A DNA stretch of 64,000 bases from Rhizobium sp. NZLR1 (GTDB lineage: Bacteria; Pseudomonadota; Alphaproteobacteria; Rhizobiales; Rhizobiaceae), in the NCBI RefSeq assembly GCF_017357385.1, contig NZ_CP071632.1:3739501-3803500 (forward strand). Direction: 5' to 3'. Below the pieces are notes generated by a model, which worked only from the letters and a program-made list of their open reading frames with translations, did not search any database and was not told where the DNA came from. Numbering within the stretch: position 1 is the stretch's first letter; each line of letters opens with the position of its first letter. The translations under genes were made by a program, and so were the position numbers. Below are positions 47,178 to 52,080 of this stretch, piece after piece.

Positions 47178-48476
47178 ATGAAGAGAAACCTTCTGTCCGT
47201 CGCCGCGCTGCTTTTTGGCACGCTCTTCCTTTTCATGGGCAACGGCCTGCAGGGCATCCTGCTTCCCGTGCGCGGCAATCTCGAAGGCTATGCCACGACG
47301 ACACTTGGCCTGCTCGGCACCTCATGGGCCGGAGGCTTCGTCATCGGCTGCCTAGTGGCGCCGAAGCTGGTGCGCCGCGTCGGCCATGTGCGCGCCTTCT
47401 CCGGCTTTATCTCGATCATCGCCATCATCGCCCTGGTCAGCGGTATCCTCATCCATCCGGTCTGGTGGGTCGTCTTGCGCGCCGTCACCGGCTTCTCCAC
47501 GGCGGGCACCTCGATGATCATCGAAAGCTGGCTGAACGAGCGCGCCAGCAACGAAAGCCGCGGCGCGATCTTCTCGCTCTATATCGGCATCACGCTGCTC
47601 GGCGTCGTCGGCGGCCAGATGATGATCCCGCTCGAGGATGTGCGCACGCCGGTGCTGTTCATGATCTGCGGCATCTTCTATTGCATTGCCATGCTGCCGA
47701 CGACGCTTTCGACCGCCGCTTCGCCGCAGCCGCTGAAGGCGGTGCGCCTCGACCTGCCGGCGCTCTATCGCAATTCGCCGGTCTCCTGCCTCGGCATTCT
47801 GCTCGTCGGCATCGCCAACGGCGCCTACGGTACGCTCGGCGCCGTCTTCGGCGCAGGCGCCGGGCTCTCCGACACCAGCATCGCCATCATGATGAGCTCC
47901 ACCATCTTCGCCGGCGCCGTGATGCAGCTGCCGGCCGGCCGGCTTTCCGATCGCATCGACCGGCGCTATGTGCTCGCTGCCATGTCCGGGGTCGCCGCCC
48001 TTGCCGGCTTGCTGATCTTTTTGCTCCACCCGACGTCGCCCGCCTTGCTGATTGGGCTCGTGGTCCTTTACGGCGCGGTGGCCAATACGCTCTATCCGAT
48101 CGCCGTCGCCCACGCGAACGACTTCGCGGCATCGGAGGATTTCGTCAAGGTCTCCGGTGGACTGCTGCTGCTCTACGGCATCGGCACGGTAATCGGCCCG
48201 ACGATCGGCGGTCCCGTCATGTCGGTGATCACTCCGCATGCGCTTTTCCTCGTCACCGCCATCGCCCACGTGCTGATCACCGTTTACGCGATCATCCGGA
48301 GCCGCATCCGCGCCGCCGTCCCGGCCAGCGATCGTGACGCCTACACGACGATCCCGACCGGCACCTCGCCGATGCTGACACCGCAAAGCATGTCGCTTGC
48401 CGATCGCGGCGCTGGCAAACCGCCTGAAACCGGGAAGTCTCCCGAAAGCGGTGATCCCGCTGTAAAGTTCGGCTAA
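47178..48476 (+). CDS. MFS transporter (YcaD-like)
   Basis: This 432-aa major facilitator protein has about 12 helices. Conserved features include the first helices FGTLFLFMGNGLQGILLPVRGNLEGY, the loop VAPKLVRRVGHVRAFSG and the second-half repeat PAGRLSDRIDRRYVLA. The cargo is unknown. The C-terminal tail (about 390-432) is hydrophilic and proline-rich. It is divergent from the 54-aa membrane protein gene and apparently monocistronic. Confidence 0.88.
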   Translation: MKRNLLSVAALLFGTLFLFMGNGLQGILLPVRGNLEGYATTTLGLLGTSWAGGFVIGCLVAPKLVRRVGHVRAFSGFISIIAIIALVSGILIHPVWWVVLRAVTGFSTAGTSMIIESWLNERASNESRGAIFSLYIGITLLGVVGGQMMIPLEDVRTPVLFMICGIFYCIAMLPTTLSTAASPQPLKAVRLDLPALYRNSPVSCLGILLVGIANGAYGTLGAVFGAGAGLSDTSIAIMMSSTIFAGAVMQLPAGRLSDRIDRRYVLAAMSGVAALAGLLIFLLHPTSPALLIGLVVLYGAVANTLYPIAVAHANDFAASEDFVKVSGGLLLLYGIGTVIGPTIGGPVMSVITPHALFLVTAIAHVLITVYAIIRSRIRAAVPASDRDAYTTIPTGTSPMLTPQSMSLADRGAGKPPETGKSPESGDPAVKFG

Positions 48477-48487
48477 TGCAGGTCGCC

Positions 48488-48570
48488 CGAAAGGGTGCAG
48501 CGGTTCCGGCATAGCGACACGCATAAAAACAGAGTTGAGGATGAATTCAGGCCGGATCGGCCTAAATTCC
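48488..48570. repeat. Degenerate RIME-type repeat
   Basis: The segment CGAAAGGGTGCAGCGGTTCCGG (48488 onward) resembles the centre of the first RIME palindrome. The palindrome AATTCAGGCCG (48544-48554) with CGGCCTAAATT (48558-48568) resembles the GGCC-containing centre of the second. The outer arms seen at 23100 and 36239 have decayed. It lies between the MFS gene and the DUF1192 gene. Confidence 0.55.
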
Positions 48571-48621
48571 GATTCCGTAACTTTTCGGCAGGATGCTTCA
48601 GGCAGCAACGGAGGAGAACCC

Positions 48622-48813
48622 ATGAGCTTCATCGATGACGACCGGCCGCAGAAGAAGACCGCCCACGAGATCGGCGCCGATCTCTCCATGCTTTCGGTGG
48701 ACGAACTGAACGCGCGGGTGGATTTGCTGAAGGCGGAGATCGCCCGTCTCGAGGCCGAAGCCGCCCGCAAGGCTTCCGGGCGGCAGGCAGCGGAAAGCCT
48801 TTTCCGCTCATAG
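48622..48813 (+). CDS. DUF1192 family protein
   Basis: This 63-aa protein consists of an acidic N-terminus (MSFIDDDRPQKKTAHEIGADL) and a single helical segment with heptads (LSVDELNARVDLLKAEIARLEAE). That matches the small DUF1192 proteins of Rhizobiales. A GGAGGAGAACCC site precedes the ATG at 48622. The longer frame upstream runs through the RIME remnant and is rejected. The function is unknown. Confidence 0.82.
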   Translation: MSFIDDDRPQKKTAHEIGADLSMLSVDELNARVDLLKAEIARLEAEAARKASGRQAAESLFRS

Positions 48814-48886
48814 TCCGATAAAACCCCGAAAATCAAAGCTGTAGGCGGATAAACGAGTTCGCCTCAAGTCTTACTTCGGCACAATG

Positions 48887-48901
48887 TTAATAAATTATTA
48901 A
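48887..48901 (+). promoter_or_regulatory. CtrA box (perfect TTAA-N7-TTAA)
   Basis: TTAA, seven bases (TAAATTA), TTAA. It lies about 30 bp upstream of the proposed 5' end of the candidate small RNA, where CtrA activates promoters by covering the -35 region. A TTTATAAGGTATTA stretch follows and could supply the -10 element. Confidence 0.6.
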
Positions 48902-48917
48902 GCTTTATAAGGTATTA

Positions 48918-49028
48918 CTGTACTCATCCGGATTTTCTCTGGATCTCAGACAGTTTTCCAAGCGGTGAATTGGTCTGATTTTTCTCCCTGTTTTACCTTG
49001 AGAGCCGCTTTTGCGGCTCTTCTTTTTC
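48918..49028 (+). ncRNA. Candidate CtrA-controlled small RNA (about 110 nt)
   Basis: Three stem-loops follow one another. The first is ATCCGGA (48926-48932) with TCTGGAT (48938-48944), containing one G-U pair. The second is CAGA/CCAA (48947-48950, 48958-48961) with TTGG/TCTG (48970-48977). The third is a terminator, AGAGCCGC (49001-49008) with GCGGCTCT (49013-49020), followed by TCTTTTT. Between the second and third lies an unpaired U/C-rich tract (TTTTTCTCCCTGTTTT) able to pair with ribosome binding sites. No ORF is evident. The 5' end is inferred from the CtrA box. Confidence 0.6.
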
Positions 49029-49062
49029 CTCTGGCCGGCGCTTCTCCACGAAACTGTGGAGA

Positions 49063-49077
49063 TTAACCCTTTCTTAA
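49063..49077 (+). promoter_or_regulatory. CtrA box upstream of rcdA (perfect TTAA-N7-TTAA)
   Basis: TTAA, seven bases (CCCTTTC), TTAA. It lies 126 bp upstream of the rcdA ATG and is a full match to the CtrA consensus. RcdA takes part in CtrA proteolysis in Caulobacter, so this would close a feedback loop. Confidence 0.65.
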
Positions 49078-49202
49078 GAAACGGCTTGCGCATTTGGGCT
49101 AATGATACCATCTTAAAGTCATAAAGACCGGGCTCGGAAACTTTTCCGTCGGTGCCCGCGTTACCTGAATATATGTAGCTGCGTGCAACAGGGACTATTG
49201 CG

Positions 49203-49718
49203 ATGTCGGAAGTTGGATTGAACACGATCAGTTTTGCAGGTCGCGCCGCTGCATCCTCGCAGTTCAAGGCACTTTATGCGGAAGGCATGTCGCTGGTCGA
49301 AGAGACTGCCGCCTATCTGGATGGCCAGGGCCGCGCCGCTTCCAAGGTTCTGCCGCGGATGGCTTCGGTTCTCTACGCCGCAGAATCGATGCGTCTCACC
49401 ACCCGCCTCATGCAGATGGCCTCCTGGCTGCTGTTGCAGCGCGCCGTCAACAATGGCGAAATGTCTCGCGACCAGGTGCTGGCCGAGAAGAACAAGGTTC
49501 GTCTCGATGGCTTCAACGTCGACCGCGCCGCGCCGGGCTGGGGCGACCTGCCGGAATCCTTCCGCGACCTCGTTGAGCGCTCGCTGCGTCTGCAGAACCG
49601 TATCGCCTTGCTCGACCGCGAGATCTACCGCCCGTCCGAAGCTGTGATCGTTCATGACAATCAGAACAGCGTCCAGGCCCAGCTTTCCCTGCTCCAGACC
49701 GCCTTCGGCAACAACTGA
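49203..49718 (+). CDS. rcdA: RcdA, regulator of CtrA degradation (DUF1465)
   Basis: This 171-aa protein matches the DUF1465/RcdA family, a helical adaptor that with CpdR and PopA directs the ClpXP protease to CtrA in Caulobacter. The segments FKALYAEGMSLVEETAAYLDG, RLTTRLMQMASWLLLQRAV and FRDLVERSLRLQNRIALLDRE form a three-helix bundle. The ATG at 49203 has a GGGACTATTGCG leader and only a weak ribosome site. A perfect CtrA box lies upstream and a strong terminator downstream. Confidence 0.88.
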   Translation: MSEVGLNTISFAGRAAASSQFKALYAEGMSLVEETAAYLDGQGRAASKVLPRMASVLYAAESMRLTTRLMQMASWLLLQRAVNNGEMSRDQVLAEKNKVRLDGFNVDRAAPGWGDLPESFRDLVERSLRLQNRIALLDREIYRPSEAVIVHDNQNSVQAQLSLLQTAFGNN

Positions 49719-49740
49719 CCGTATCTGCGAGAATTCGATA

Positions 49741-49770
49741 AAAACCGGCCGCGTCTGCGGCCGGTTTTTT
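49741..49770 (+). terminator. Strong terminator after rcdA
   Basis: The 10-bp stem AACCGGCCGC with GCGGCCGGTT has a GTCT loop and a run of six T's. It lies 25 nt after the rcdA stop. Confidence 0.93.
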
Positions 49771-49810
49771 ATTTGCTTGCTAACTCAGCTATTTCCGAAC
49801 ATCGAGAACG

Positions 49811-49835
49811 CAAAAAAGCCCGGCAAAACCGGGCT
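49811..49835 (-). terminator. Terminator for rpmE
   Basis: Read on the minus strand, AGCCCGG pairs with CCGGGCT around a five-base loop and is followed by six T's. It lies 28 nt after the rpmE stop. Confidence 0.9.
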
Positions 49836-49862
49836 CTCTTCAATTCCATCGAGCAAAAGCGA

Positions 49863-50084
49863 TTAGAGGCCGAGGCCGCCGAAACGCTTGTTGAACTTGG
49901 AGACGCGGCCACCGCGGTCCATGAGCTGCTGGTTGCCGCCGGTCCAGGCCGGATGCGACTTGGAATCGATTTCGAGGTTCATGACAGCACCCTCCGAACC
50001 CCAGGTCGAGCGGGTTTCGTATTCGGTGCCATCGGTCATGACCACCTTGATCATGTGATATTCGGGATGGATGCCTGCCTTCAT
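49863..50084 (-). CDS. rpmE: 50S ribosomal protein L31
   Basis: This 73-aa protein of the large ribosomal subunit begins [29 protein letters not shown] and ends in [13 protein letters not shown]. No CxxC zinc ribbon is present, so this is the cysteine-free form common in alphaproteobacteria. GGAAGATTGTT upstream is a usable ribosome site. It is monocistronic with its own terminator, convergent with rcdA and divergent from the ABC exporter. Confidence 0.95.
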
Positions 50085-50277
50085 AACAATCTTCCTGCGC
50101 TACCGGAGTTCAATTTGCCGCATGCAGTTGCGGCCAAAGAACCGATTGAATAAATGAAGCCGCAGTCATGATGGCTACGGCTTCCCATTAGGATGCGGTG
50201 CCTATACATGAAGGACGCCTAGATAACAAGAGCCAGCAGGCCGCATTGAGCGGGTCCTGCGGGCGATCGGAGACGAG

Positions 50278-52080
<1,803 letters not shown>

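Follow-up and report, generated by a model that had tools for sequence, protein, structure and literature searches.

A candidate CtrA-controlled small RNA, related to RF02356, encoded upstream of rcdA in Rhizobium sp. NZLR1

The region between DUF1192 and rcdA

The region studied here lies in a stretch of 64,000 nucleotides (nt) of Rhizobium sp. NZLR1 (contig NZ_CP071632.1, positions 3,739,501 to 3,803,500, forward strand), called the window hereafter and numbered from its first nucleotide. Between a DUF1192 gene (PF06698; 48622..48813, + strand; 80.6 bits against a cut-off of 25.5) and a DUF1465 gene (PF07323; 49203..49718, + strand; 196.9 bits against a cut-off of 25), which we take to be rcdA, an initial annotation made from the letters alone had proposed a small RNA (sRNA) controlled by CtrA. 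The analysis reported here argues for such a gene through a box kept at constant spacing, a −10-like element, compensatory changes in the stems and a terminator. The RcdA protein of the window is identical to named records from Rhizobium leguminosarum, R. laguerreae, R. ruizarguesonis and similar.

The predicted gene begins with a CtrA box, TTAA-N7-TTAA, at 48887..48901 (+ strand, like all features of the intergenic region), whose half-sites (48887-48890 and 48898-48901) are exactly 7 nt apart, so that its description as a perfect box holds. A probable −10 element, TATTAC, follows at 48913..48918. The predicted transcript, of which the 5′ end can be placed to within a few nucleotides and the 3′ end is set by the terminator, spans 48925..49028. 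In the computed fold it comprises stem-loop 1 (48926..48944), stem-loop 2 in a form particular to the Rhizobium clade (48946..48978; elsewhere a GAGTGG-loop-CCACTC hairpin), an unpaired 21-nt linker, UUUUUCUCCCUGUUUUACCUU (48979..48999), and an intrinsic terminator (49000..49028) made of a 9-pair stem at 49000-49021 and the U tract CTTTTT. The linker, defined by the fold and by its conservation, is the probable seed. It contains CTCCCTGTT at 48984-48992, unpaired in the fold, which bears out the CTCCC tract first noticed between the hairpins.

Folding of 48918-49028 gave a minimum free energy of −36.8 kcal/mol (z −4.94), a value that none of 200 shuffled sequences equalled, in keeping with the three stem-loops of the initial annotation. 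The stretch also appears to be non-coding, as first supposed: no ATG occurs on the + strand of 48918-49027, and the longest GTG or TTG frame beginning 5′ of the terminator has 33 codons and is devoid of a recognisable ribosome site. A second perfect TTAA-N7-TTAA box, overlooked in the initial annotation, was found 3′ of the terminator at 49063..49077 and is attributed to rcdA. In the ribosome-site region of rcdA, AACAGGGA (49187..49194) is a perfect complement of the sRNA sequence UCCCUGUU.

Conservation of the fold and of the terminator

The comparison drew on 80 named loci of Rhizobiaceae, closely related to each other and fetched through RcdA rather than through an RNA model; on 27 further loci found through RcdA, the best RcdA matches outside the own genus (order loci hereafter); and on 70 loci hit by the Rfam model RF02356. 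Alignment A1 holds 29 rows of the Rhizobium clade, namely the window and 28 of the 80 named loci chosen for diversity. Alignment A3 holds 42 of the 70 Rfam-hit loci, themselves the top-scoring RF02356 matches, with the GAGTGG form of stem-loop 2. These two were used in place of a 74-row alignment of both forms (A2), in which stem-loops 1 and 2 were misaligned and the consensus was reduced to the terminator. Covariation was tested against 500 shuffles that keep kinship; since relatedness is left in them, the resulting figures are not probabilities.

The stem arms are kept across relatives, a check that had been called for at the outset, with two-sided changes in both alignments. Analysis of A3 revealed that 98.5% of the cells pair, with two-sided changes in 8 of the 19 pairs and 24 two-sided cells against 3.7 in shuffles (0/500 as many); three of the six pairs of stem-loop 2 are among them. 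In A1, 99.1% of the cells pair, with 10 two-sided cells against 3.6 in shuffles (0/500) and three two-sided pairs against 1.1 (8/500). All of these changes fall in stem-loop 1, where they affect three of five pairs over the 29 rows. The clade's stem-loop 2, paired in 99.4% of its cells, consequently rests on conservation and energy and not on covariation. Between the two groups stem-loop 2 and the flanks of the linker have been remodelled, while UCCCUGUU is kept in 29/29 rows of A1 and 38/42 of A3.

The terminator, described from the beginning as a clear one, is kept in all 80 named loci. Over 3 kb the terminator scan returned three terminator-like sites against 2.8 expected in shuffles, so that the scan alone is no proof; the conservation in 80/80 loci is. 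Its stem starts 187 nt past the end of DUF1192 at 48813, close to the 190 nt or so estimated before. On the + strand between 48813 and 49000 the scan found no other terminator-like site, which is what would be expected if the RNA were the 3′ end of the DUF1192 messenger, processed or terminated there; 79 of the 80 named loci also have a DUF1192 homologue that ends on the same strand 5′ of the sRNA box. This origin is nevertheless very improbable, given that a CtrA box and a −10-like element stand at a fixed distance 5′ of the hairpins and that the stretch from DUF1192 to the box shows little conservation over 31 aligned loci. Read-through from DUF1192 may add to the 3′ end of an sRNA gene of its own. 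Columns 28-31 of A1, at the −10-like element, reach 0.9-1.6 bits, with weaker flanking columns.

Relationship to RF02356

The Rfam search proposed in the initial annotation was run on 2 kb with lax filters and yielded a full-length match to RF02356 (BjrC1505) at 48880-49026 (model positions 1-140 of 140; 37 bits, E 7.2e-5), which is also the sole match in the own genome of 6.86 Mb (E 5.9e-5). This score lies below the cut-off of 50 bits, so that the sRNA is a divergent relative and not a listed member of the family, and a search at that cut-off misses it. The same cut-off hides the gene in all three other genomes of the genus that were examined (E 1.2e-5 to 5.2e-4).

Conversely, a covariance model built from the 29 Rhizobium-clade sequences only (R1) matches the window at the place of 48887-49027, and by visual comparison R1 and RF02356 match the same places in nine genomes (G300, G388, G252, G359, G276, G372, G410, G105 and G136). 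The two share a genomic place and detect each other, as expected of common descent, and both have three hairpins with an unpaired CUCCCUGUU linker. These comparisons show the sRNA to be related to RF02356 by descent, as a divergent lineage within a family already known to Rfam. BjrC1505 reportedly comes from Bradyrhizobium, where its transcript is said to have been detected. Its source is Madhugiri et al. 2012, as cited in PMC7143759.

Like the window RNA, BjrC1505 lies 5′ of rcdA, includes the box within the model and ends in a similar terminator. The two differ in stem-loop 2 (TCAGAC..GTCTGA in the window RNA, GAGTGG..CCACTC in BjrC1505), in the flanks of the linker (UUUUUC..UUUACCUU against UUUGACGC..UAA in the BjrC1505 form) and in the base 5′ of CUCCC, which is U in the window RNA and C in the other form.

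The initial annotation had left undecided whether the RNA was EcpR1, GspR or a new sRNA. It is neither EcpR1 nor GspR, as locus and distribution set both aside, and its kinship is with RF02356, a family already in Rfam. EcpR1 (SmelC291), judged by its locus and with no sequence comparison made, was rejected: it adjoins divK-pleD and rpmG (PMC4414408), the window RNA DUF1192 and rcdA. GspR (SmelC775) was rejected on locus and distribution, with no sequence comparison made; the sections of PMC5928217 that treat it place it between SMc03844 and SMc03845, conserved hypothetical genes, report it from Sinorhizobium only and mention no known promoter signature 5′ of its 5′ end. The window RNA, in contrast, occurs in 119 of 120 genomes of the genus whose named relatives are Rhizobium. 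EcpR1 and GspR remain comparable as rhizobial sRNAs that act on cell-cycle mRNAs from other loci. A match to RF00519 (AbcR; suhB/mmgR) was rejected as weak (24.4 bits against a cut-off of 41) and confined to the 3′ part. Matches to SorY and Hrs13 were likewise rejected as far below their cut-offs, that of Hrs13 falling on a terminator 3′ of rcdA.

Distribution and association with rcdA

RF02356 matched 205 of the 249 order genomes (174 above the cut-off), 190 of the 247 family genomes (133 above it) and 25 of the 240 genomes in a class sample, two of the 25 (G000 and G082) being members of the order; none of 14 control genomes gave a match. R1 matched 218 of the 247 family genomes. With the DNA sequence itself as query, 119 of 120 genomes of the genus were recovered, the match in distant ones often being reduced to about 48896-49027. 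RF02356 left 44/249 order genomes and 57/247 family genomes unmatched, and R1 left 29/247 of the latter; the R1 misses include several genomes of 3-5 Mb as well as small ones of 1.1-2.0 Mb. One miss at least is false: in G021 (contig C2, near 1269363), where RF02356 gave no match, the antisense of the RNA core stands about 250 nt 5′ of rcdA. Absence of the family, as judged by Rfam, is thus unreliable.

For the count of synteny, 150 sRNA rows (of at least 205) were compared with 150 RcdA rows (of at least 179), 100 genomes being present in both. Among the matches listed, RF02356 lies on the same strand less than 1 kb 5′ of rcdA in 99 of these 100 order genomes, 137-532 nt (median 210) from the RcdA match; in the exception, G071, the strand is the same and the distance 1203 nt. 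A single-sequence tblastn over 1.5 kb found an RcdA match downstream of 65 of the 70 RNA loci. The five others, two in one Rhizobiaceae genus and three outside the order, have the RNA without a detected rcdA, which suggests a gene of its own and not merely an rcdA leader.

In the two loci of that Rhizobiaceae genus (g139; L078 and L083), the RNA and a strict box are kept, rcdA was not found within 1.5 kb, and a short conserved open reading frame (ORF), MPVSFDRRELDQILRLYGRM.., follows the RNA. In the three outside the order (L094, L095 and L097), the RNA precedes an ORF resembling O-acetylhomoserine sulfhydrylase, and in L097 a DUF1192-like ORF lies upstream; both were named from their translations.

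The close association with rcdA could also be read as that of a long rcdA 5′ leader with an attenuator, in which transcription starting at 48925 serves rcdA, the terminator setting how often it gets there. The RNA does adjoin rcdA on the same strand in 99/100 genomes among the matches listed, and more than one rcdA transcription start site (TSS) has been mapped in agrobacteria, where the authors took them as independent rcdA promoters (PMC10469942). We judge this leader improbable: rcdA has its own box 3′ of the terminator in 80/80 named loci; no rcdA was detected within 1.5 kb of the RNA in 5/70 loci, where a very diverged RcdA could be missed; and no anti-terminator fold appeared among the folds computed, no search having been aimed at one.

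CtrA boxes at the sRNA and at rcdA

Since the RF02356 model includes the CtrA box, box counts on loci found with it would be circular, and the counts were taken from RcdA-found loci. Strict boxes are expected by chance at 0.0165 per 600 nt, as estimated from shuffled rcdA upstream regions. The sRNA box is present in 80/80 named loci (61 strict, 19 relaxed), 91-98 nt 5′ of the CTCCC core; counted from rcdA, 61 of the 80 hold a second strict box further upstream than that of rcdA. The half-sites reach 1.5-2.0 bits in A1, and alignment positions 5-10 of the spacer 0.3-0.6 bits, with position 11 at 1.4. This profile, in which six of the seven spacer positions stay at or below 0.6, is as would be expected of a protein site.

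Beyond the named loci, 24 of the 27 order loci hold the exact core CTCCCTGT, and 23 of these 24 have a box at −85 to −91 from it (15 strict), where a relaxed box would occur by chance about 0.0008 times per locus. L039 is the sole core-holding order locus with no box even under the relaxed pattern. A full TTAA-N7-TTAA box is in this way conserved at the predicted promoter, as for members of the CtrA regulon. The three order loci that lack the exact core (L041, L046 and L048) have an RNA-like stretch with CCTCCC, altered following bases and a terminator; L046 carries a strict box, and the first half-site is degraded in L041 and L048.

The rcdA box is strict in 80/80 named loci, 128-143 nt 5′ of rcdA, but a strict box between the RNA and rcdA was found in only 4 of the 24 core-holding order loci. 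With none in the other 20, the sRNA box is the more conserved of the two, and that of rcdA looks like a later addition in part of the family. In the order loci examined, the sRNA box is usually the sole box from the sRNA promoter to rcdA.

A box alone does not tell the direction of control, and CtrA could in principle repress the sRNA instead of activating it. We regard repression as unlikely, given that, with 48925 as the start, the box would extend from about −38 to −24. A box at such a position is the arrangement known from CtrA-activated promoters. In Caulobacter, moreover, ccnA has a CtrA box at −23 and is positively linked to CtrA (PMC8959179). Activation of the sRNA by CtrA is therefore the direction that we retain as likely from the position of the box.

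The linker as a probable seed

With AACAGGGAG as its complement, the linker constitutes an anti-Shine-Dalgarno sequence. Seventeen of its nucleotides, TCTCCCTGTTTTACCTT, are invariant in 29/29 rows of A1. CTCCC is kept in 72 of the 74 rows of A2 (altered in L021 and L099) and in all 27 order loci, three of which have the next TGT altered.

An invariant stretch of 17 nt in 29 rows goes beyond the apparent need of a short target pairing, and the target searches made, given below, found no conserved target. Both points would suit an sRNA that titrates or marks something besides the ribosome sites of mRNAs, such as a protein that binds the CU-rich linker. We hold this to be a minor possibility, as the retention of CTCCC, with changes in the TGT that follows, is the pattern of an anti-Shine-Dalgarno seed, and as the layout of AbcR1 and AbcR2 (PMC7143759) is similar. 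Pairing with ribosome sites remains the plausible mode of action on this evidence. Since conserved targets were not found, it is derived from the architecture of the RNA.

In the Rhizobium clade, AACAGGGA occurs in 38 of the 80 named rcdA leaders against 0 of 79 DUF1192 leaders; the 80 loci being closely related, the 38 are not independent cases. It is possible that rcdA is a target of the sRNA within this clade, a guess limited to it.

Neighbouring features

Downstream of rcdA, a hairpin of 13 pairs, bordered by an A run and a T run (49740-49769), lies before the convergent gene of ribosomal protein L31 (49863-50084, − strand), and is probably a shared bidirectional terminator. Weak Rfam matches to Hrs13 and STnc50 fall on it.

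Discussion

The data taken together are best accounted for by a separate sRNA gene, some 100 nt long, between DUF1192 and rcdA. Phosphorylated CtrA would bind the box, which overlaps the −35 region of the sRNA, and would most likely activate it when CtrA is high. The RNA would fold into three hairpins and end at its own terminator, as the comparison strongly supports. Its unpaired CUCCCUGUU stretch would pair with the ribosome-binding regions of mRNAs carrying ACAGGGAG-like sequences and lower their translation. CtrA would in this way drive, side by side, RcdA, the adaptor through which CtrA itself is destroyed, and an RNA that represses translation. Among the targets, within the Rhizobium clade, is perhaps rcdA, and RcdA would then be delayed. 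The comparison gives strong support to the RNA, to its position and to its box; activation by CtrA is likely, and the seed mechanism is plausible. As a whole, a CtrA-activated, trans-acting relative of RF02356 that masks ribosome sites with CUCCCUGUU is the explanation that we consider probable.

Several observations weigh against it. First, the 37 bits scored with RF02356 fall short of the Rfam gathering threshold of 50 bits, which sets the threshold of membership. A scan for E. coli-type sigma-70 promoters found none in 47500-50500, where 0.9 were expected. The pair types of A3 do not exceed those of shuffles (17 against 16.8; 280/500), and stem-loop 2 of the Rhizobium clade shows no two-sided change in A1. 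Secondly, pairing of the seed with the leaders of ctrA (mean z 0.0; 30/30 leaders) and gcrA (mean z −0.25; 23/30 leaders, the pattern having missed the start codon in the seven dropped) is at chance, with the general Rhizobiales seed used except for four own-genus leaders; ctrA and gcrA were accordingly rejected as conserved targets. In the own genome, ACAGGGAG precedes an ATG at 24 sites and the reversed pattern does so at 11; the genes concerned share no theme, and this excess may partly reflect ordinary ribosome-site composition. A hunt over 121 genomes gave 50 sites in 38 of them against 3 control sites; no recurrent target gene was seen by eye in the 30 of the 50 sites read, and at least six of the 50 (in G040, G115, G080, G021, G103 and G067) are adjacent to rcdA, at positions that make them the antisense of the sRNA gene itself. 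Finally, none of the 65 rcdA leaders taken from Rfam-hit loci outside the clade contains AACAGGGA, whereas ACAGGG occurs in 9 of them and CAGGG in 16; rcdA was rejected as an order-wide target on this count.

Two known systems resemble the predicted sRNA. Like it, AbcR1 and AbcR2 have three hairpins, with CU-rich anti-Shine-Dalgarno stretches left unpaired, and masking of ribosome sites is the presumed action of AbcR sRNAs (PMC7143759); they differ by their locus, SMc01226-lsrB, and their tandem arrangement. For CcnA of Caulobacter, an action at ribosome sites has also been proposed, but this RNA of 182 nt is encoded at the origin and acts on ctrA and gcrA (PMC8959179), with which the seed of the window RNA has no conserved pairing. 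Its authors did not clearly detect a CcnA homologue in S. meliloti (PMC8959179). Our literature search found no publication linking the RF02356 RNA to CtrA control or to rcdA, which the paper naming BjrC1505 may do; no function of RF02356/BjrC1505 came up in that search, which extended to its sister sRNAs.

CtrA and rcdA themselves have been linked before. In S. meliloti, chromatin immunoprecipitation sequencing reported in PMC4433202 found the rcdA promoter region bound by CtrA, not resolved to one box, and the same source gives rcdA mRNA as unchanged on CtrA depletion; TSS data place a CtrA motif 5′ of rcdA (PMC3616915). RcdA is listed among the genes with conserved CtrA control in one alphaproteobacterial cluster (PMC2877005). 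In three agrobacterial lineages, rcdA has multiple starts, linked by the authors to independently regulated promoters, a start being assigned to a gene if it lay at most 300 nt upstream (PMC10469942). Judged from the position of the boxes, the predicted sRNA start of Agrobacterium rubi (L191), A. vitis (L198) and R. rhizogenes (L173) would fall roughly 260-280 nt 5′ of rcdA, inside this limit.

A broader proposal, which we put forward with considerable reserve and think unlikely as a whole, is that across the order, the Rhizobiales, the conserved CtrA site assigned to rcdA is in fact the promoter of the sRNA. The latter would then be the order's counterpart of CcnA, an RNA made under CtrA that shapes the translation of its own control circuit, including RcdA in the Rhizobium clade, and a protein and an RNA arm of feedback would issue from one intergenic region.

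That the sRNA box is the more conserved one may explain how CtrA binds at rcdA in S. meliloti while rcdA mRNA does not respond to CtrA depletion. The conserved CtrA control predicted for rcdA (PMC2877005) and the multiple rcdA promoters of agrobacteria (PMC10469942), as these sources describe them, may in part describe the sRNA. By being tied to a CtrA box and to rcdA across most of the order genomes examined, RF02356 becomes a candidate part of a much-studied cell-cycle circuit.
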